The position numbers and the translations under genes are program-made. A stretch of DNA of 64,000 bases, taken from assembly GCA_021324735.1 (NCBI GenBank), contig JAJPIO010000014.1, positions 124,001 through 188,000 of the forward strand, in the 5' to 3' direction. The DNA is from Bacteroidota bacterium (lineage in GTDB: Bacteria; Bacteroidota; Ignavibacteria; Palsa-1295). Below are positions 9,849 to 55,153 of this stretch, in pieces. Positions within the stretch are counted from its first letter, which is position 1. The number at the start of each line of letters is the position of its first letter. Under the pieces are notes generated by a model. It saw only the letters and a list, made by a program, of their open reading frames with translations. It was not told where the DNA came from and ran no database searches.

Positions 9849-10667
9849 ATGAAACGACGATCGACCTTGAGCGAATTAGCACTACGCCTGAATGATCAGG
9901 CCATGCTGGGTTTCAAGGCGCGGGGAGGACGGGATGAGAGGATAAAGATCGAAGGTGTGCGAAATGGCACGTCTTCGTCGCTCAGCTCAGAAGCCACCAC
10001 AGCGCCGGAAGCCGCTTTGTTTTCGGTCGAGAGTCAGGTCCGGGCCGGCAGTGCTGAAGCGAAACAGCTTAAGGCCGAGCTGGCAAAGCTGGAAGATGCC
10101 GATCTCCTGCGGCGATTCCAGCAAGGCGAAGAGATAGCATTTTATGTGATCTTCGAGCGCCGTCATAAAGAGATTTATACGCATTGTTTCCGGATGTGCT
10201 CCGGTGATGCCGAGAAGGCCAATGATGCGTTCCAGGATACGTTCGTCAAAGTGTTCACACGCAAAGATCTATTTACCGATGCGACCAACGGCCGTGCGTG
10301 GCTCTATAGAATAGCCACGAACACGTGCCTGAACCAGCTGCGCTACGACCGCAGACATCCGCACGAAGCGATCGATGATAATGTGAATTCTTACGATCCG
10401 CAGATGCAGCCCGATTTCGGGACCGAGCAGGACTCCTTACGAGCCTCTCTCGAACGGGCCGTCGCCAAACTGCCGGTCGAACTACGAGAGCCTTTTTTAC
10501 TTCGCGAGCTAGAGGAATTCAGTTATGAAGACGCCGCGGCCCAGTTGGGGATCTCGATCGCGGCATGTCGGCAGAGGGTGTATCGTGCAAAACAGATCTT
10601 GCGCGAAGAACTCGAAGAAGTCGTCACCGGTGAGCCGAAAAAGAAATCATGGTTCGGGCGGAAATAA
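9849..10667 (+). CDS. ECF-family RNA polymerase sigma factor with N-terminal extension
   Basis: 272 residues. Region 2 (~residues 85-160: DADLLRRFQQGEEIAFYVIFERRHKEIYTHCFRMCSGDAEKANDAFQDTFVKVF, then GRAWLYRIATNTCLNQLR) recognises the -10 element and core polymerase. Region 4 (~residues 195-255: AKLPVELREPFLLRELEEFSYEDAAAQLGISIAACRQRVYRAKQILREEL) recognises the -35 element. About 80 residues precede region 2, longer than in usual ECF factors. The gene begins a three-gene set with a membrane anti-sigma-like protein 21 bases downstream and a lipoprotein beyond it, so it probably answers an envelope signal. The inverted repeats upstream may be its own control site. Confidence 0.92.
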   Translation: MKRRSTLSELALRLNDQAMLGFKARGGRDERIKIEGVRNGTSSSLSSEATTAPEAALFSVESQVRAGSAEAKQLKAELAKLEDADLLRRFQQGEEIAFYVIFERRHKEIYTHCFRMCSGDAEKANDAFQDTFVKVFTRKDLFTDATNGRAWLYRIATNTCLNQLRYDRRHPHEAIDDNVNSYDPQMQPDFGTEQDSLRASLERAVAKLPVELREPFLLRELEEFSYEDAAAQLGISIAACRQRVYRAKQILREELEEVVTGEPKKKSWFGRK

Positions 10668-10688
10668 CTGCCTTGACCCGAATATGCA

Positions 10689-12119
10689 ATGGACATCGCC
10701 ATGCAGAATGAAGAGAAGAATAGATTAGAAGAGAGGATCATACAGCACTTCGATGGCTCGCTTTCGGGTGAGGAATCGAAGTCGCTCCTCCGCGAAGTTG
10801 CCGAGAGCACTGAGAAACGGGCGCTCTTTAAAAGCTACGAGACGCTTAACAAAGTGATCTCTGCGGCCCGCATTCCCATGGAGTTGCCGGTCGAAGCGAA
10901 GAACTCGATCGCCGAGCGCATCCCCGGTCTTCTCGCGTTCATTCCGGGTCTTATCGGTACTGCCGAAACCTTGCCTATCGTTACACAGAGTGCCAATCCC
11001 TTTGTCGCATTTTTCACGAAGATGTCTCTTTCGACCGCCGTCTCCATCGGGACGGGAGTCGCGGTGCTTACTACGGCTGGTGTAGTCGTTAAGAACAAGT
11101 TAGACGATAACGCCGCCCATGAGAAAGCAAAGATAGCGGTCGTACACAATCAGCAGCAGGCAAACCCGAGCGCACCAATGTATGCTACGCTACCCGGCCA
11201 TGACCTGACCACGACGAATGTTGGAAGTGGTACGACGGCGGCAATCGGTGAAGGAGCTACTAAAGATATAGCGGGTAGTGCCAAAACCAATTTGTCCCAG
11301 AGGACGCATCAGTCCTTGGGGACAAGCAGTGCACACGTACCGTCTTCTAATAATGCTGTTGAAGACATTCCTTCAGCCACTAACGCTTCGCAGAGCCAAC
11401 TTCCACCGGAGGCCGCCGTTTCTGCTGTTGCAGCAAAACCGGTAGCGCCGGTTAGCGCCAATATTCCTGACTTCCACCCGACCTCATTTGCAAGCCTTCC
11501 GCTCGTTTTCAGCGAAGGGCTTGCGGTACGACCGTTCGTATCGGTTGGAGGACGAGTTCAATTTGTGAGCGCAGATCACGACATCGCCGGCTTGACGCCA
11601 AATGACGGCAATGCTGCCAGTGATCTGCGCCTCGGAGTAGATATTGCGATCATTGATAATCTTGGTCTGCGATTGCAGGGTGGGAATATGCAGATCTCGC
11701 GTCTGGTGGATCGCGCCGGAACACCGAAAGTAGCTTCGCTTTATAACGGGTTGACACAGGAGTATGTCAACTATACGACAGTGAACCTGGAGAACGCGTA
11801 TTGGGCCACTGCCGGTCTGACATACCATGTGTATGCGACCGATGCTATTCCACTTACATTCAGCGTAAGTGGTGGCGCCGCGTTCTTGTCCACGACTGCA
11901 CCAATGGCAGAGCTTGGACTTTCGACTGAATTAGCAGTCAGTAGTCATCTCATGATTTCGCCCGGTGTCAGTTACGATGCAGTATGGACAACGACCGAGA
12001 ACCTCCGGGGCTCGCAAGGTGTGCCAGGCAACGCAATTTTGGTCGATCGTGGATTTAATCGGTCAACGCTATTCAGTTCGTCGTTGGGACTTACACTCGG
12101 ATTTCAATACCACTTTTAA
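10689..12119 (+). CDS. Candidate dual-membrane-spanning anti-sigma factor with outer-membrane barrel
   Basis: 476 residues in four parts. Residues 1-110 look like a short cytoplasmic anti-sigma domain (LEERIIQHFDGSLSGEESKSLLREVAESTEKRALFKSYE) with no zinc-binding motif. Residues ~114-134 are one transmembrane helix. Residues ~140-275 are a Ser/Thr/Ala/Pro-rich disordered linker. Residues ~278-476 are alternating beta strands ending in GLTLGFQYHF, a typical outer-membrane barrel C-terminus with terminal Phe. The protein can thus reach from cytoplasm to outer membrane, as described for the Dma anti-sigma factors of Bacteroides. The sigma gene lies 21 bases upstream and the lipoprotein gene starts right at its stop codon. 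A second ATG at 10701 is also possible. Confidence 0.7.
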   Translation: MDIAMQNEEKNRLEERIIQHFDGSLSGEESKSLLREVAESTEKRALFKSYETLNKVISAARIPMELPVEAKNSIAERIPGLLAFIPGLIGTAETLPIVTQSANPFVAFFTKMSLSTAVSIGTGVAVLTTAGVVVKNKLDDNAAHEKAKIAVVHNQQQANPSAPMYATLPGHDLTTTNVGSGTTAAIGEGATKDIAGSAKTNLSQRTHQSLGTSSAHVPSSNNAVEDIPSATNASQSQLPPEAAVSAVAAKPVAPVSANIPDFHPTSFASLPLVFSEGLAVRPFVSVGGRVQFVSADHDIAGLTPNDGNAASDLRLGVDIAIIDNLGLRLQGGNMQISRLVDRAGTPKVASLYNGLTQEYVNYTTVNLENAYWATAGLTYHVYATDAIPLTFSVSGGAAFLSTTAPMAELGLSTELAVSSHLMISPGVSYDAVWTTTENLRGSQGVPGNAILVDRGFNRSTLFSSSLGLTLGFQYHF

Positions 12120-15277: not shown

Positions 15278-18200
15278 ATGGCTCGAATTTTCTTCGTCAT
15301 ACTTTTTATTTCATCTTTCATCCCATCCGCTCATGCTTATTGGCAGCAGCACGTGAAGTACGATATTGACGTGACGCTTATCGATTCCATACACACGTTG
15401 GATGGAACGCTGAAGGTTCTTTACACGAATAATTCGCCGGATACGCTTCACGAAGTCTACTTTCATCTTTATTCTAATGCTTTCCAACCGGGAAGCATGA
15501 TGGATGAACGCGCACACGCTATCGGTTCGGCTCCTATCTTCGATCGTATTGGCAAACTGCCGCCATCCGAGTGGGGGAAGTATTGGATCAACTCTGTTAC
15601 GTGCAACGATCAGCAATCGAAGTTTGAGATCACCGGCACGATCATGCGGGTGATTTTGCCTGCGCCGTTAGCGCCCGGCACAAACGTCACCATTTCACTA
15701 CCGTTTCGCGAACAGATCCCGAGGCAGATACGCCGCAGCGGTTGGATGTCGCGAGAGGGCGTTGAATATTCAATGTCGCAGTGGTATCCCAAGATATGCG
15801 AATACGATGTCGAAGGATGGCAGCATCAGGAGTATATTGCCCGCGAGTTTTATGGAGTGTGGGGTGAGTTCGATGTGTCGATCACGCTCCCGAGTCAATT
15901 CACCGTTGGTGCGTCCGGAGAGTGTGTCAATCCGGCTGAGGCAAAGCATGGATACGAGCGCATTGCCGCTGGTGAAAAAGAAGGAGCATTCGAAAGCGAT
16001 ATTGCTGCTCCCGGAATGACCACGTGGAAATTCCACGCTTCGCCGGTACACGACTTCGCCTGGGTTGCCGACGACCGTTATATCCATGAATGGGCCACGA
16101 TGCATGATACCATCACGGTCCATGCGCTTTATAAGACCTGGGTTGCTAACTGGTGGAATCGCTCAGCCATTGCCTATTCGATGCACGCGCTCTCGACCTA
16201 TAGCGAGCTTTATGGTGCGTATCCCTATCATAACTTCTCGTGTACAATGGCGGGTGATGGAGGGATGGAGTATCCACAGCTTATTATGATAACCGGGTAT
16301 CGCCCGTCGCCATTATCGCTTGCTGGTGTTATCGCTCACGAAGCGGCGCACCAGTGGTTCTACGGGTTACTCGGCTCGAACGAGACGCGCGAAGCTTTTA
16401 TGGACGAAGGCTTCACGACCTATGCCACCACCATCGCGATGGACCGGCTCTTTGGCGATAACCAGGAAGTACCCGGCACCGAGCATTCGTGGCTCGATTG
16501 GTTCGTGCCGAAGTTCAGCAACAAACGCGATAACTATCGCGGCTACCAGCAGATCGCTTCACAGCATTATGAAGAGCCACTCGATATTCCGCATGACTGG
16601 TTTCGAGAAGATGCAACCGCCGGACAGGTATATGGCAAGACTGCAGCCATTCTTAATATGCTGGAGTACGCGCTTGGCGATTCCGTATTCGCGGCTGGCA
16701 TGAAAGAATATTATAACGAGTGGCATTTCAAGCATCCTCATCTCGTCGATTTCAAACGTGTGATGGAAAAGACCGCGCACACCGATCTCGACTGGTTCTT
16801 CGATGAGTGGTTCAAGACGACGAGGACAGTGGATTACGAAGCTGAATCTGTCACTTCACGCCCAGGTACTGGTGATTACGCTCATACGATCAATACGATT
16901 ACATTACATAACCGTGGGCTAGCGGTAATGCCCATCGATTTGTTGCTTCATTTTGATGATGGGAGTACGAATGCGGTGACGATTCCGCTCTCCGTAAATA
17001 AGAATCTTGCATATCGCAAGGACCATCGCAGCGGCTGGGATATCAAGAATGGATGGAATCCTGTTACGCAACTTCCGCCCTGGGATTGGACTTCTCCCGA
17101 CTATTCTGCGACGTTCGAAGTGATGTCATCGAAGATATTGCAATGGTTCGAGATCGACACATCCTGGCGATTGCAGGATTTGAACTGGCTGAATAACTAT
17201 AGCACTCGTTCGGGATTGTGGTCGCCTCCAGGCGAGTGGGCGGTATGGAAACAGCTTTTTGTTTTCCCGCCGATCGACAAGTATTGGGCGGTAGCGCGGC
17301 CGATTGTGTGGTATGAGGCTATCTCTGGAGTGGACGTTGGGGCCGGCATTAAGTTCGGAATGAACAACAGCTTCTCGGGCGATGCTAAAATAATTTATCG
17401 TACGCAATCGCGACCGACAGACCTCACAAGCTTACTATATTATGAAGACGCACCTACAAATTGGTACGACCAGATCGATGGAGCGATCACTTATTCTACA
17501 CCGGTAGATTGGCTTGGTCGCCTCACATCCTTTTCGGCGCACGCTGAAAAGATGTATGGGATCGGGCAGGCGGAGGTTTCGCTTTCGAAGGTATTTCGTC
17601 CGGAGTACTGGCGCCTCGGAGCAACACACGAGGCAAAGCTCTTTCTCGAGACGGATGAAGCGCTCGAGCCGAATGTTTTTCCTGTCTATCATGCGGGATG
17701 GGCCCCGGGCGTGTGCGATGTGGCAGGAATTACTTATTCGATCGAAGATGGGCGAAGCGATAGCCGGTTCGATCTTCTCGCTGAGACCAGTGTGCTTCAA
17801 TCCAATCAAAACTTTTCTTTGCTTCAAGCGACGTATCGGACTGAAGTGGGTCTACCATTCACTCTTACCTCGAAGCTTCGTTTGACGGCTGGGGCCGCTA
17901 CCAGCGGGACTCCTTTTCAGCGGCGATTCTTTTTGGATCGAGCTAATAACTTTGAGGAACAGGCGAACGGATTTTTCCGAGCGGTGACGGCGATCGATCC
18001 ACACGCTCTCGCTGCTGACGGTGATTTCTTCGTCGAGGGCGGCGCTGGTGTTCGAGGGTATAACTCATCGCATTACAACTCGTTGCTCGATACTCATTTT
18101 GTCGGGACCGATATGTACGGTGCCAGTTGGGATATCGCATTGCCGAATCCTGCCGCATCGTTAGGTAAATTTCCATCTTCGTTCTCTTTTGGTGCATTTG

Positions 18201-18454
18201 CAGATGCGGGCTGGGTTGGCCAGTCGTGGGAAGAGGCATGGGGCGGAAGTTCTAGTACGATCAAAGTGGACGCCGGTATTAAGGTTGGGGTGGATATCCG
18301 GTCCTGGCTGCCATCACAGCTTCATGGAGTTGTGGACGAATACGATGCGGTTCCAATCGTAAATCTCTATTGGCCGATGTATGAGAATGCGCCCGTCGAT
18401 GGTCGACCACCATTCGCCTGGCGGTGGGCGGTCTCGCTGGGAGCCGCATTCTAG
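15278..18454 (+). CDS. M1 metallopeptidase fused to a putative Omp85-type outer-membrane barrel (copy 1)
   Basis: About 1058 residues from the ATG at 15278, which gives a signal peptide (MARIFFVILFISSFIPSAHA); upstream frame is open to 15203 but holds the double hairpin. The M1 zinc site is HEAAH (354-358) with Glu377 after 18 residues, preceded by GGMEYP in place of GAMEN and followed by the YGKTAAILNML segment with the likely catalytic Tyr. From ~residue 680 the chain turns into alternating beta strands with VRGY at 925-928 and a terminal Phe (SLGAAF), 130 residues later. That is the layout of the Omp85/BamA-family barrel, where (V/I)RG(F/Y) lies in loop 6. I infer a peptidase anchored at the cell surface or periplasmic face. 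The next gene is a paralogue. Confidence 0.85.
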   Translation: MARIFFVILFISSFIPSAHAYWQQHVKYDIDVTLIDSIHTLDGTLKVLYTNNSPDTLHEVYFHLYSNAFQPGSMMDERAHAIGSAPIFDRIGKLPPSEWGKYWINSVTCNDQQSKFEITGTIMRVILPAPLAPGTNVTISLPFREQIPRQIRRSGWMSREGVEYSMSQWYPKICEYDVEGWQHQEYIAREFYGVWGEFDVSITLPSQFTVGASGECVNPAEAKHGYERIAAGEKEGAFESDIAAPGMTTWKFHASPVHDFAWVADDRYIHEWATMHDTITVHALYKTWVANWWNRSAIAYSMHALSTYSELYGAYPYHNFSCTMAGDGGMEYPQLIMITGYRPSPLSLAGVIAHEAAHQWFYGLLGSNETREAFMDEGFTTYATTIAMDRLFGDNQEVPGTEHSWLDWFVPKFSNKRDNYRGYQQIASQHYEEPLDIPHDWFREDATAGQVYGKTAAILNMLEYALGDSVFAAGMKEYYNEWHFKHPHLVDFKRVMEKTAHTDLDWFFDEWFKTTRTVDYEAESVTSRPGTGDYAHTINTITLHNRGLAVMPIDLLLHFDDGSTNAVTIPLSVNKNLAYRKDHRSGWDIKNGWNPVTQLPPWDWTSPDYSATFEVMSSKILQWFEIDTSWRLQDLNWLNNYSTRSGLWSPPGEWAVWKQLFVFPPIDKYWAVARPIVWYEAISGVDVGAGIKFGMNNSFSGDAKIIYRTQSRPTDLTSLLYYEDAPTNWYDQIDGAITYSTPVDWLGRLTSFSAHAEKMYGIGQAEVSLSKVFRPEYWRLGATHEAKLFLETDEALEPNVFPVYHAGWAPGVCDVAGITYSIEDGRSDSRFDLLAETSVLQSNQNFSLLQATYRTEVGLPFTLTSKLRLTAGAATSGTPFQRRFFLDRANNFEEQANGFFRAVTAIDPHALAADGDFFVEGGAGVRGYNSSHYNSLLDTHFVGTDMYGASWDIALPNPAASLGKFPSSFSFGAFADAGWVGQSWEEAWGGSSSTIKVDAGIKVGVDIRSWLPSQLHGVVDEYDAVPIVNLYWPMYENAPVDGRPPFAWRWAVSLGAAF

Positions 18455-18493
18455 GTGCGATGACGCAAGCTAAAGCATGCGCCACATTCGTTG

Positions 18494-18501
18494 TATTTTT
18501 G
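18494..18501 (+). promoter_or_regulatory. Possible -7 element (TATTTTTG) for the second giant M1 peptidase
   Basis: TATTTTTG fits TAnnTTTG and lies 24 bases before the ATG at 18526. I see no TTG at the expected spacing, so it is weak; the gene may instead be read from the upstream paralogue's promoter, whose stop is only 71 bases before this start. Confidence 0.3.
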
Positions 18502-18525
18502 CGTTATTCTTTTCGCGAATATTTA

Positions 18526-21500
18526 ATGCGCCTTATTTTTTGTCTTCTTCTTTCGTCGATTCTGCTCGGGCTTAACGCGCCGGTCGCTGCCCAGATTGCT
18601 GCCACCGGTATACCCTATTTTCAGCAGCATGTACATTACTCGTTGGCCGCTACCTTCGAGGACGATGTAAGATCGCCCGCATTGCAGGGCCATGAAAAGT
18701 TAGTGTATACGAATAACTCGCCCGATACTCTACACGAATTATATTTTCACCTCTATTGGAATCTCTTCCGCAATGGAAGCTATGGCGAAAGTGCGCCCAA
18801 CCGCGACCATCGCTCCGATGAGAAGTATGGTCATGGCGGCATCGATGTCTCGAATCTGACGCTTGTCTATCCCGGAGCCTCACCCAATGCCAATCTGGAT
18901 TACACGATCGATAATACCATCCTTCGTCTTAAACTACCTCAACCACTCTTACCAGGAGACTCTCTTAATTTCGAGTGCGAATGGCATGGAGTCTTGCCGA
19001 ACTACGGTATACGCTCGACATGGGGCTGGCACGATGGAGCCGCGCGTAATTTCTCGACGGCGCAATGGTATCCGCAAGTCTGCGTATATGATAATCATGG
19101 CTGGCATCCCGATCAGTATATCGGCATGGGTGAATTCTATACAGATTATGGTGCATTTGATGTCGCCCTTACAATACCCGAGCGATTTAATACTATTGTG
19201 ACGACCGGGTGGCTACAAAATCCGAAGGACGTTCTCACTCAGCAAGAACAAGACAAGCTTGCATTTGCCCGCTCACATCCCGATTCGATCGTTCGTATCG
19301 CGGATTACTCGAATTATCATCCGATGCCGATCTCGAAGAACGAGCCAACACGGGTGTGGATATTCCACGCCGATTCCGTTCGTGATTTTGCCTGGTGTGC
19401 AGATGAAGCATACATCTGGGATGCTGTGTACGATGACAACGTAATGCATCACGCGCTGTTTTGGAATAACTCGCGTGCGTTTTGGGGTGCAGAGGCCGCG
19501 AAGATCGTGCTCGTGACCGAGCAAACGAACTCCGCGTTCGCTGGCAAATACGCTTATCCCAATATGTTCATGTGTGAGACGTATGAAGGTGGGATGGAGT
19601 ATCCGGGAATTGTCTATGTGGGGCCGTACGAAAATGGCTCGCTCTACCATTGGCCCCAGAATACAATGATGCACGAGCTCGGCCATGAGTGGTATCCAAT
19701 GATGATGGGCTCGAACGAGACTGACTACGGATACATGGACGAAGGCTTCAATACGTTCATCACGACATTCGTACAAGAGAAATATTTTGGGCGGTGGAAT
19801 AACTCGTATGGTCCGGGTCTCGGATATAACGATGATGAGCGGACCTCGAATTATCGCGGGGCTCTCTTGCAGCAGCTTTCGGGTAATCAGGAGCCGAGCA
19901 AACAAAAGGCGGATGCCTATTTAAGTTATCATGATTATGCGGAGGCCACATACCCGCATACATCGAGCGTCTTCTTTATGCTGCGTTATACAATGGGCGA
20001 GAAGGCGTTTGCCGATTTCATGCATTTGTATTACGAGCGCTGGCGGTTCAAACATCCCTATCCGGACGATCTCTTAAATGCTGCGGAAGATATCGAGCGT
20101 AGAGAAGGGGATACGAATCGGATAAAAGTGCGTGGAGATCTCCGCTGGTTTTTCAATGAGTGGTTCGAGCAAACCTGGAAGCTCGATTACTCGATCGGCG
20201 ATTTCCATACCGACGGCACAACTACTACGGTCAAGATCGAACGTAACGAGCGAGCCGTTATGCCGCTTGACCTCGTCTTTACCTTTGAAGATGGTACCAC
20301 CGAACAAAAATGGATACCGGTGGACGATTGGCTCCGAACGGTTGCTGACGAGCGAACATACACGTATACTTTCGCGAAACGTCCGGTTCATGTGGAGATC
20401 AATCCATCGCGCGAGCTGATGGAGACGAATCGGCTCAATAACTCGAGCAGTTGGTTGCCGCCGATGGATGTAAGCCTGGTGCCACGAATATTCGGCGATG
20501 AGAAGCCCATCGATAAATACGCTATACGGTCTGCCCCATACATCTGGCCTCGCTCGGGCGATTTCAAAAAATGGGCGTTCGGCTGGACGTTATTGGGTGG
20601 TTATCTCGACCGGACCGACCGCCTTGCTATCGGTTTGCGTGGCATTATGACCGGGGCTGGCACATTACCTGGCGACCTTATCCAATACCATTCCGTTGCG
20701 GATTGGCTCTCGCCATGGACGGATATCGATATTTCGGCCATACATGCGGAGCGCACCGATTACGCCAGCGCGGCCATCAGTCAGGTAGTGACCGTGCCTG
20801 GTACAACGACTCCCCGTCACATTTTTAGCGCCGCTTATGATTTTCACATGCTCGAGTGGTTTCACGATGGTGTAGTGCCTGAGTTGCCAACGGCAACTTT
20901 GCCGCCGCTTAATCGAGGTTATGTTGCCTACACATTTCATGATGAAGCAGCGATCAATGAGTTTACTTTTGCTGCACAAGCGGAAGATGGATTAGGCGAT
21001 CCGCGCACCACATATACCAAACTTGCCGGTACGCTCAACGATCGTTTAGATTTAGGCGTAGACTGGGATGCTTACGTTCGCTTGTTCGGAGGAAGTATGC
21101 AGCCGATCGATGGGCTAATTCCTCAGGACACCAAATTTCAGCTCGCTTCATCGAGTGATATCGATCACTTTGCTGATATGTATGGCTCGAATTTCGGAAG
21201 CAGCGTTCGCGATAAGATCCGCAATGCTGCGGTATCGGGGCCGTTGGTTCGCGGATATTTAGATGAGGGCAATGATATTGGCCGCGTTGCCGTGTCGGGC
21301 TCGTTCGAGCTTAATAATCGATCGCTTTTCCCGTTCACGTTCCTTCGCGAGATCCCCTTCATCGGCCAGTTGTTCGAGCCATTTGGTCTTACAGTTTTTG
21401 CGGATGCCGGCATGGTCACCGACGCATTTTGTACATGCGAATTACCCGATCATCTAAAAAGCGATATTGGTCTCGGGCTGCGATTCTTCGGGATGGATAG

Positions 21501-21639
21501 TCGCTGGATGCGCACTACAGGCCTCGATCTCGACCGCGTTAATGCACAGATCGATTTTCCACTCTATATCGATAAACCACTTATTGGCGAAGCCAAGCTA
21601 AAATTTCGAGTCGTCGGAATGGTGCGGCAGGAATTCTAA
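18526..21639 (+). CDS. M1 metallopeptidase fused to a putative Omp85-type outer-membrane barrel (copy 2)
   Basis: About 1037 residues from the ATG at 18526 (signal peptide MRLIFCLLLSSILLGLNAPVAAQ). The open frame extends back to 18424 but that part overlaps the previous gene. The M1 site is HELGH (383-387) with Glu406, preceded by GGMEYPG. The N-terminal half aligns with the upstream paralogue (YTNNSPDTLHELYFHLYWN; MGSNETDYGYMDEGFNTF). From ~residue 680 the chain is barrel-like, with VRGY at 908-911 and a C-terminal VVGMVRQEF. The last ~130 residues after VRGY match the four to five final strands of an Omp85 barrel. Its own promoter is doubtful. It ends 4 bases from the convergent lipoprotein gene, and both stops lie in one palindrome. 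Confidence 0.85.
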   Translation: MRLIFCLLLSSILLGLNAPVAAQIAATGIPYFQQHVHYSLAATFEDDVRSPALQGHEKLVYTNNSPDTLHELYFHLYWNLFRNGSYGESAPNRDHRSDEKYGHGGIDVSNLTLVYPGASPNANLDYTIDNTILRLKLPQPLLPGDSLNFECEWHGVLPNYGIRSTWGWHDGAARNFSTAQWYPQVCVYDNHGWHPDQYIGMGEFYTDYGAFDVALTIPERFNTIVTTGWLQNPKDVLTQQEQDKLAFARSHPDSIVRIADYSNYHPMPISKNEPTRVWIFHADSVRDFAWCADEAYIWDAVYDDNVMHHALFWNNSRAFWGAEAAKIVLVTEQTNSAFAGKYAYPNMFMCETYEGGMEYPGIVYVGPYENGSLYHWPQNTMMHELGHEWYPMMMGSNETDYGYMDEGFNTFITTFVQEKYFGRWNNSYGPGLGYNDDERTSNYRGALLQQLSGNQEPSKQKADAYLSYHDYAEATYPHTSSVFFMLRYTMGEKAFADFMHLYYERWRFKHPYPDDLLNAAEDIERREGDTNRIKVRGDLRWFFNEWFEQTWKLDYSIGDFHTDGTTTTVKIERNERAVMPLDLVFTFEDGTTEQKWIPVDDWLRTVADERTYTYTFAKRPVHVEINPSRELMETNRLNNSSSWLPPMDVSLVPRIFGDEKPIDKYAIRSAPYIWPRSGDFKKWAFGWTLLGGYLDRTDRLAIGLRGIMTGAGTLPGDLIQYHSVADWLSPWTDIDISAIHAERTDYASAAISQVVTVPGTTTPRHIFSAAYDFHMLEWFHDGVVPELPTATLPPLNRGYVAYTFHDEAAINEFTFAAQAEDGLGDPRTTYTKLAGTLNDRLDLGVDWDAYVRLFGGSMQPIDGLIPQDTKFQLASSSDIDHFADMYGSNFGSSVRDKIRNAAVSGPLVRGYLDEGNDIGRVAVSGSFELNNRSLFPFTFLREIPFIGQLFEPFGLTVFADAGMVTDAFCTCELPDHLKSDIGLGLRFFGMDSRWMRTTGLDLDRVNAQIDFPLYIDKPLIGEAKLKFRVVGMVRQEF

Positions 21640-53245: not shown

Positions 53246-55153
53246 ATGCGCCTCGCAATTCTCGTTTTTATACTGAGTCTGGCTCGTGTAAGCTATGGCC
53301 TTCCAGTAATGGTCACCGATACCATCCCGTTCGATACGGATTCTTCGTTCGACGTAAATTACATGAAGCTCGATCTCTTCGTGCGACCTGATACGGAATA
53401 TATTGCCGGCAACGTTGAGCTTTTGTCTCACGCGAATATTTTAAGAGGCGACAGAACTATCCAACTGAGCCTTCGCGAGCAGCTACAGGTCGATACGATT
53501 ACCGAGAATGGAAGCCCAGCCACATTCTCGCATATCGGTGACAAGCTATTCGTAACCTTGAGCAGAATCTATGCGCCGGGAGAGCGATTTATTCTTAAGG
53601 TTTACTACCATGGCTTCTCAACGACACCGGACCGAAGGGGATTTATTCATACGACGCAACTTATGCCGGCTCCTGGCAACTTCACTTCATGGTCTAGTAG
53701 CGAGCCGTTTAATGCCAAAGATTGGATCCCTTGCAAAGATAATCCCGCCGATAAACTCGATTCTGCCGATCTAATATTCACTTGTCCAAAACCTAATAAT
53801 ATCTCTTCGAATGGAATATTAACTCGCGTTGTCGAGCATGACACAACGACGACATTTTATTGGCATGAATCGTATCCGATCGATCACTATTTGCTGGCTT
53901 TTCAGTGTACTATTGCAGATACCATCTCTCATTGGCATCATTGGGCCGATGGTGACAGCACTTATATTATGCATTGGGTATATCCCGTTTCGATGGATAC
54001 CATGCCCGACCGATTAAAGATTATCGATACAATCCTCGACTTATACGATCGTTGGTTCGGACCGTATCCTTTCCGGCATGAGAAATATGGTTTTGCACAA
54101 TGGGAAGGAGGTGGAATGGAAAATCAAACCCTCTCTTTCTGCAATTCTGCCGATCCTGGGTTAGTAGCCCATGAAACGGCCCACCAGTGGTTTGGAGATG
54201 CTATTACCTGTAAAACATGGAATGACTGTTGGCTCAATGAAGGCTTTGCTACGTACATTGCAGACGAATACAATGGGTATTTTCGTCACTTGGTAAGCTT
54301 TGATACTATTATGAAAGGGCACGAACGCGATGTGACCTCACAACCGGGTGGGACTGTGCACACACCAGATAGCCTTCTCGTTCCGAATACGCTCAATGGC
54401 CGATTGGTCTATAGCAAAGCGGCGCTACTACTGCACATGTTGAATTTTATTCTAGGCAGCGATTCTGCTTTTTTCCGATGTATTCGTGAGTATATAACGG
54501 GGCCGCTTCGGTATCATGTTGCATCGGCTGAAGATTTTCGGGCGGCGGTCGAGAAAGCAAGCGGACGTGATCTCAAGTGGTTCTTTAACGAATGGGTATA
54601 TGGCGACGGTTATCCTATCTATTCTGTGACGTGGGCCGCAAAGGATAGCTTGCACCCCGTAGTTGCAATATCCGAGCGAGGCTCGACGGAATACAGCCCA
54701 TTCTTTACAATGCCGATCGAATTAGAATTTAAAGGTGTCGGTATCGACACAATCGTTCAAGTATGGGACGATCAAGCCCTCAAGGCGTTTCAATTTTCGT
54801 TTTCGAAGCCGGTCCAGGTAATGGTCTTCGATCCTCATAATTGGCTTTTGGACGGGGAAGAACCAAGAACGCTCGCTGTTCGAATATCTCAGTCTCAAGC
54901 GATGCCTTTTACTGTAAGTAAGGAAGTAAGTGGTTATGACTTCATGTTCTCGACTTCAAGCGCAGGGGACACTCATATTGCGATTTACGATATGCTTGGA
55001 CGAGAGGTTTGCATCATCCCTCTCGGGATGCTGGATGAAGGCGCTCATTCGATTCCTTACCAATTTCCGGCGCTTATAAACGGGATGTATATCTGTCAGT
55101 TGTTTGTAAATGACAGAGCCACCGCCAGTTCTCGCTTTATCGTAACGCAGTAA
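53246..55153 (+). CDS. Secreted M1 metallopeptidase with T9SS sorting domain
   Basis: 635 residues: signal peptide (MRLAILVFILSLARVSYG), M1 peptidase with the canonical GGGMENQTL substrate loop and HETAH (309-313) plus Glu332, LVYSKAALLLHML with the catalytic-Tyr region, then a C-terminal type A T9SS domain (DTHIAIYDMLGREVCIIPLGM ... LINGMYICQLFVNDRATASSRFIVTQ). It is a shorter and different design from the two giant M1 proteins at 15278-21639: secreted by T9SS instead of carrying a barrel. The stop codon abuts that of the DUF5723-like gene (TAATTA). Confidence 0.93.
   Translation: MRLAILVFILSLARVSYGLPVMVTDTIPFDTDSSFDVNYMKLDLFVRPDTEYIAGNVELLSHANILRGDRTIQLSLREQLQVDTITENGSPATFSHIGDKLFVTLSRIYAPGERFILKVYYHGFSTTPDRRGFIHTTQLMPAPGNFTSWSSSEPFNAKDWIPCKDNPADKLDSADLIFTCPKPNNISSNGILTRVVEHDTTTTFYWHESYPIDHYLLAFQCTIADTISHWHHWADGDSTYIMHWVYPVSMDTMPDRLKIIDTILDLYDRWFGPYPFRHEKYGFAQWEGGGMENQTLSFCNSADPGLVAHETAHQWFGDAITCKTWNDCWLNEGFATYIADEYNGYFRHLVSFDTIMKGHERDVTSQPGGTVHTPDSLLVPNTLNGRLVYSKAALLLHMLNFILGSDSAFFRCIREYITGPLRYHVASAEDFRAAVEKASGRDLKWFFNEWVYGDGYPIYSVTWAAKDSLHPVVAISERGSTEYSPFFTMPIELEFKGVGIDTIVQVWDDQALKAFQFSFSKPVQVMVFDPHNWLLDGEEPRTLAVRISQSQAMPFTVSKEVSGYDFMFSTSSAGDTHIAIYDMLGREVCIIPLGMLDEGAHSIPYQFPALINGMYICQLFVNDRATASSRFIVTQ

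Follow-up and report, generated by a model that had tools for sequence, protein, structure and literature searches.

The window considered here, a stretch of 64,000 nucleotides from a bacterium of the Bacteroidota (class Ignavibacteria; assembly GCA_021324735.1, contig JAJPIO010000014.1, positions 124,001 to 188,000), carries two tandem open reading frames (ORFs) on the + strand, at 15278-18454 (gene 1) and 18526-21639 (gene 2), with a gap of 71 bases between them. Their products (P0001, 1058 amino acids, and P0002, 1037 amino acids), characterized from the ORFs, matches to PF01433 and sequence motifs, display the same domain order, namely a signal peptide, an M1 metallopeptidase and a C-terminal barrel of ~390 residues, here assigned to the Omp85 type. 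The two ORFs and their signal peptides had been proposed in an earlier note on this DNA, and both ORFs are found at these coordinates. The N-termini are signal-peptide-like (putatively 15278..15337, MARIFFVILFISSFIPSAHA, in gene 1 and 18526..18594, MRLIFCLLLSSILLGLNAPVAAQ, in gene 2) and, by eye, neither protein has a lipobox. The proteins share 31% identity across the M1 half and the first part of the tail; BLASTP between the two does not link the remainder of the tails. Of the seven congeneric genomes, at least four (G000, G004, G005 and G006) have the genes side by side. A terminator scan found no terminator-like site in the gap, and promoter-like sites in a promoter scan are no commoner than in shuffled sequence.

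Membership of the M1 family is supported by PF01433 (Peptidase_M1), which scores 74.0 bits (E 1.7e-20) in gene 1 and 47.5 bits (E 2.2e-12) in gene 2 against a curated cut-off of 27.7 bits. The zinc site (HExxH-18-E), claimed to be complete in the earlier note, is indeed intact in both proteins: HEAAH-18-E at residues 354-377 of gene 1 (16337..16408) and HELGH-18-E at residues 383-406 of gene 2 (19672..19743). Upstream, a GGMEY sequence (residues 328-332, 16259..16273, in gene 1; residues 355-359, 19588..19602, in gene 2) occupies the position of the classical GxMEN exopeptidase motif of M1 enzymes, with the Glu retained and Asn replaced by Tyr, and most homologues have the same form. The zinc site and a downstream Tyr are kept in nearly all homologues (in L050-L052, L059 and L161 the zinc-site pattern wrongly matched an upstream motif). 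The solved structure that best matches the M1 domain of gene 1 is a cold-active aminopeptidase (3cia_A, E 8.2e-9); the gene 2 domain has no solved match at E 0.001. Both genes thus encode M1-family proteins with intact catalytic residues, whose retention makes an active enzyme likely.

The tail as an Omp85-type barrel

When the full-length proteins were scanned directly against Pfam and NCBIfam, the significant matches were of M1 type only, and the tail was left undetected. Pooling of homologues was more informative. Among the 36 aligned homologous tails from which a tail profile was built, seven match PF01103, with 3.7e-6 as the best value, and every other Pfam family collects at most one. 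A relative in the same family (L050, genome G007) exceeds the PF01103 cut-off in the genome scan, yet PF01103 is not among the Pfam scan matches of its full-length protein at E 0.01, so that detection from a single sequence is marginal. Searched against 177,635 PDB sequences, the tail profile gave 44 matches, all of them BamA. Profile alignment with hhalign of the tails to the Omp85 barrels of the same genome and its relatives reached 98% (P 2.9e-13) and brought the RGY motifs into register; alignment to the TonB-dependent barrels of the same genomes reached 2.4%, and this class was rejected. Separate profile comparisons to Omp85 gave 97% for gene 2-type (P2) tails, 88% for gene 1-type (P1) tails and 89% for the phylum-wide set, and reversed or column-shuffled control alignments gave no Omp85 match. 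Furthermore, P1 and P2 tails match each other at 2.7e-44, being conserved along their whole length between deep clades, and a C-terminal Phe, a membrane signature, ends 30 of 56 fused proteins versus 2 of 24 tail-less M1 relatives. These comparisons indicate a homology of the tails to Omp85 barrels that goes far beyond what chance would give.

Structure prediction points in the same direction. AlphaFold models were built from nine sequences of the window and related loci, those of the phylum-wide genome search being left out. The full-length gene 2 model (mean pLDDT 43.9) is too poor to place domains, and the model of the gene 2 tail alone reaches a pLDDT of 52 and a pTM of 0.55. At this low confidence, both display 11 strands, a long loop containing VRGY and then five strands, i.e. 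16 strands in Omp85 topology. The predicted barrel of gene 2, delimited by the model and the fold search, covers residues ~663-1037 (20512..21636); in gene 1, the linker and barrel are placed at residues 641-1058 (17198..18451) by the tail profile comparisons. The 50 best structural matches found by VIA-align all belong to the Omp85 superfamily (BamA, Sam50, TamA, FhaC and CdiB), with Z values of 15.4-18.2 across ~300 residues, and the top Foldseek match is TamA. Other outer-membrane barrels, including OprD/Occ porins, rank lower in Foldseek and were rejected. A soluble beta-sandwich or propeller, the form of tail that the earlier note had set against its own proposal, was also rejected, all top fold matches being membrane barrels. 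Taken together, the tail profile, the controlled hhalign comparisons and the fold search agree with the Omp85-type barrel proposed in that note.

The VRGY motif lies at residues 925-928 of gene 1 (18050..18061), where it was placed from the sequence and the profile alignment as the loop-6 motif, and at residues 908-911 of gene 2 (21247..21258), in the modelled loop that joins predicted strands 11 and 12, with five strands after it. It stands 130 and 126 residues ahead of the terminal Phe, so that the position and spacing first given for it hold. The loop-6 motif was detected in 35 of 59 fused homologues and not in the other 24. VRGY is therefore not what makes the family work; its loss in many homologues argues against a strictly conserved translocase and fits an anchor better.

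No POTRA domain lies between the M1 domain and the barrel, because tail-less M1 homologues end about where the tail begins. Relatives of this kind from the same class align to approximately residue 632 of gene 2 and stop 9-39 residues beyond, and a D(V/I)NRxNN motif that marks the joint in fused proteins is also found at the C-terminus of several of them. A linker of ~22 residues leads from the M1 domain to the first predicted strand, and the Pfam scan of both proteins gave no POTRA match. The POTRA-like fold that the earlier note had suggested looking for is thus not there. Among Omp85 proteins, the 'noNterm' and 'Metallo' subfamilies need not have a POTRA domain.

Homology to Omp85 also brings into consideration an outer-membrane quality control or assembly factor, in which the barrel would act in a BamA/TamA-like manner while the M1 domain cleared stalled or misfolded chains. 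The lack of POTRA, the separate presence of BamA and TamA-like genes in the genome and the degraded VRGY of many homologues speak against such a role, as does the usual activity of M1 enzymes that have a GxME motif, which is that of aminopeptidases and not of endoproteases. A precedent is provided by the M48 peptidase BepA, which targets stalled outer-membrane proteins at the E. coli BAM complex (PMC8423444, PMC13067283), and the same genome encodes a separate second peptidase-Omp85 fusion (PF13485, propeller and barrel). On balance, this role is considered improbable.

Distribution of the fusion and of related M1 proteins

Matches to the tail profile occur in 196 of 392 genomes of the phylum; counted among them are stand-alone barrels and other Omp85 proteins as well as M1 fusions. 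Reading of the ORFs confirmed fused M1 proteins in many of these lineages, and the search for other M1 proteins with this tail yielded 58 barrel-bearing homologues on the tree, from 22 family-level groups. On the M1-core tree (a quick search, with several long branches), the presence of the barrel is explained by only two changes. Gene 1-type and gene 2-type proteins form separate deep clades, both represented in two families (f1 and f16), from which the duplication behind the gene pair is judged to be old. Stand-alone barrels of ~420 residues without M1 are common in another family (f39), where they lie mostly beside acetate-kinase-like and NUDIX-like genes (L114-L134; gene names assigned by eye); the one tested (L131) does not reach PF01103.

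This distribution bears on the idea that the barrel is an anchor only, i.e. that an M1 peptidase acquired any available barrel as a tether and that its Omp85 origin is functionally irrelevant. The existence of tail-less M1 relatives within the class, the occurrence of the barrel on its own and the frequent loss of the loop-6 motif are all compatible with it. However, the fusions cluster strongly on the M1 tree, with only two label changes, and the tail is conserved over its full length between deep clades (P1 versus P2), which suggests that barrel and enzyme function together. A tether without further meaning is therefore regarded as possible, but somewhat doubtful.

Barrel-less M1 paralogues occur in the window (53246-55153, + strand) and at two other loci (L008 and L009). 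They differ in their sorting domains: L008 carries PF18962, of the type IX secretion system (T9SS), above the cut-off, the corresponding match in L009 is weak, and the C-terminus of the window copy is sorting-domain-like by eye. Thus, one genome has M1 enzymes with different apparent export routes.

Location and function of the peptidase

N-terminal domains of Omp85 proteins are on the periplasmic side. With the N-terminus of the barrel on that face, the peptidase most likely lies in the periplasm. The probable reading, in our view, is that of a periplasm-facing, outer-membrane-tethered M1 (amino)peptidase whose divergent POTRA-less Omp85 barrel serves as an anchor or portal; it is favoured because of this general orientation, the loop-6 motif seen in only 35 of the 59 homologues, and the periplasmic location of the enzyme in PlpD, the only enzyme-Omp85 fusion put to the test, whose patatin domain was found in 2024 to stay in the periplasm (PMC11116518). 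By this analogy, the place of the enzyme is probably beneath the outer membrane and not at the cell surface. Each M1-family zinc (amino)peptidase would leave the cytoplasm by the Sec route and enter the outer membrane by means of its own C-terminal 16-strand barrel, the M1 domain hanging in the periplasm directly beneath. Its substrates there, which it would trim, would be peptides or unfolded chains reaching or leaving the outer membrane, and the barrel would be an anchor and perhaps a peptide portal, not an assembly machine or a secretion pore. Nutrient trimming and outer-membrane quality control both fit a tethered peptidase. The computations give the M1 identity with its intact catalytic residues, the Omp85 homology of the tail, the lack of POTRA, the spread through the phylum and the recurring tandem; we infer the periplasmic orientation, the substrate and the role as portal or anchor.

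The earlier note had instead seen a surface aminopeptidase. Such a type Vd-like display, in which the barrel would help the M1 domain to the outside and the tethered enzyme would feed the cell with amino acids, could be read from the loop-6 VRGY that both window proteins have. In addition, at least one M1 paralogue of the genome has a T9SS sorting domain above cut-off (L008, PF18962), so extracellular peptide use is plausible, and a Pseudomonas aeruginosa autotransporter with arginine-specific aminopeptidase activity offers another barrel-tethered surface aminopeptidase. However, a folded M1 domain of ~70 kDa would need to cross a narrow barrel, and the loop-6 motif is not found in 24 of 59 homologues. 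The PlpD precedent cited in that note stands as regards an enzyme-Omp85 fusion in one chain; as a case of display it is overturned, the PlpD enzyme being periplasmic (PMC11116518). The claim of surface exposure is thus not supported, and display of this kind is unlikely. The broader proposal of a self-contained peptide-import and cutting unit, or of an Omp85-displayed surface enzyme, where the barrel conducts peptides or the peptidase across the outer membrane, is likewise given a low probability; if true, it would define a new functional class in the Omp85 superfamily, spread through Bacteroidota-type bacteria.

Several points weigh against the periplasmic, barrel-tethered peptidase. The two window tails on their own fall short of PF01103 in the Pfam scan, so that the comparison with this family suggested in the earlier note succeeds for some homologous tails and not for those of the window, and both models are of low confidence (mean pLDDT 44 and 52, from nine usable sequences). 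GGMEY has Tyr where classical GxMEN has Asn, and peptidase activity and substrate are predictions. The orientation is drawn by analogy from PlpD, which has a POTRA domain while the window proteins have none, and it is conceivable that the linker of ~22 residues behind the M1 domain passes through a barrel.

Elsewhere in the window (9849-12119, + strand), a gene for an ECF-type sigma factor is followed by one for a protein of 476 amino acids. Its N-terminus is anti-sigma-like; a single apparent transmembrane segment and a long linker then lead to a C-terminal part that resembles a small outer-membrane barrel and ends in YHF. This protein has no Pfam match and is similar to anti-sigma factors of the dual membrane-spanning kind, which have been reported from Bacteroides (PMC13088901).

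Comparison with known systems

The window proteins have their catalytic domain in common with the cold-active aminopeptidase (PDB 3cia), leukotriene A4 hydrolase and other M1 enzymes; unlike them, the solved M1 proteins compared have no outer-membrane barrel in their descriptions. With BamA, TamA, Sam50 and FhaC they share the barrel fold, the 16 strands and the loop-6 (V/I)RG(F/Y) motif, but these proteins have POTRA domains where the window proteins carry an enzyme. Enzyme-bearing Omp85 proteins include the 'Metallo' subfamily, characterized by PF00149, the calcineurin-like phosphoesterase family. In the survey by Heinz and Lithgow (2014), the Omp85 subfamilies include patatin, WD40, 'Metallo' and 'noNterm' proteins, and the 'Metallo' group likewise joins an enzymatic N-terminal domain (a 'metalloprotease') to a barrel related to the stand-alone 'noNterm' barrels (PMC4104836). 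It differs from the window proteins in having PF00149 and not PF01433 and in its reported conservation at the genus level only, and M1 is not named in the survey text searched (PMC4104836).

WD40-Omp85 proteins, made of a TolB-like propeller and a barrel, occur in the same genome and class; the copies found here also have, at their N-terminus, a domain (PF13485) of zinc-peptidase-like type. One lies outside the window (L175:318-3467; G000:C11, ~248517-251666) and has PF13485 (Peptidase_MA_2) with HExxH, a TolB-like propeller and a barrel, part of the barrel region exceeding the PF01103 cut-off; similar proteins are found at L167, L172 and L173. These differ from the M1 fusions in their peptidase family and in the propeller that separates peptidase and barrel. 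They thus form another fusion of a zinc-peptidase-like domain to Omp85, separate from the first, and probably correspond to the WD40-Omp85 proteins described in the literature.

A close parallel in design is PlpD (formerly assigned to type Vd secretion), in which a single chain likewise holds an N-terminal hydrolase and, at the C-terminus, an Omp85 barrel of 16 strands, but whose enzyme is a patatin phospholipase and not a peptidase, is separated from the barrel by a POTRA domain and forms a homodimer (PMC11116518). The patatin domain and POTRA ahead of the barrel that characterize PlpD are not found in the window proteins, which have M1 instead; the same genome also encodes a PlpD-type patatin-Omp85 protein (L004, G000:C11:27394-31347; patatin by eye, PF01103). 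No description of an M1-Omp85 fusion or of a barrel-bearing M1 protein was found in the open-licence literature searched. The architecture that the earlier note proposed as new is not confined to this locus, and the principle of an enzyme on an Omp85 barrel is known; it appears to be the M1 pairing that is undescribed in that literature. The family accounts for many ~1000-residue 'M1 metallopeptidase' proteins of the phylum, the tails of which go mostly unrecognized by the library models tested. Omp85 proteins are usually regarded as assembly or secretion machines, and a widespread lineage in which POTRA is replaced by a zinc peptidase shows the Omp85 scaffold turned into an enzyme carrier. 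The M1 fusions add a peptidase class to the case of PlpD and make it possible to distinguish clearly between transport, sensing and simple anchoring as the task of barrels of this type.

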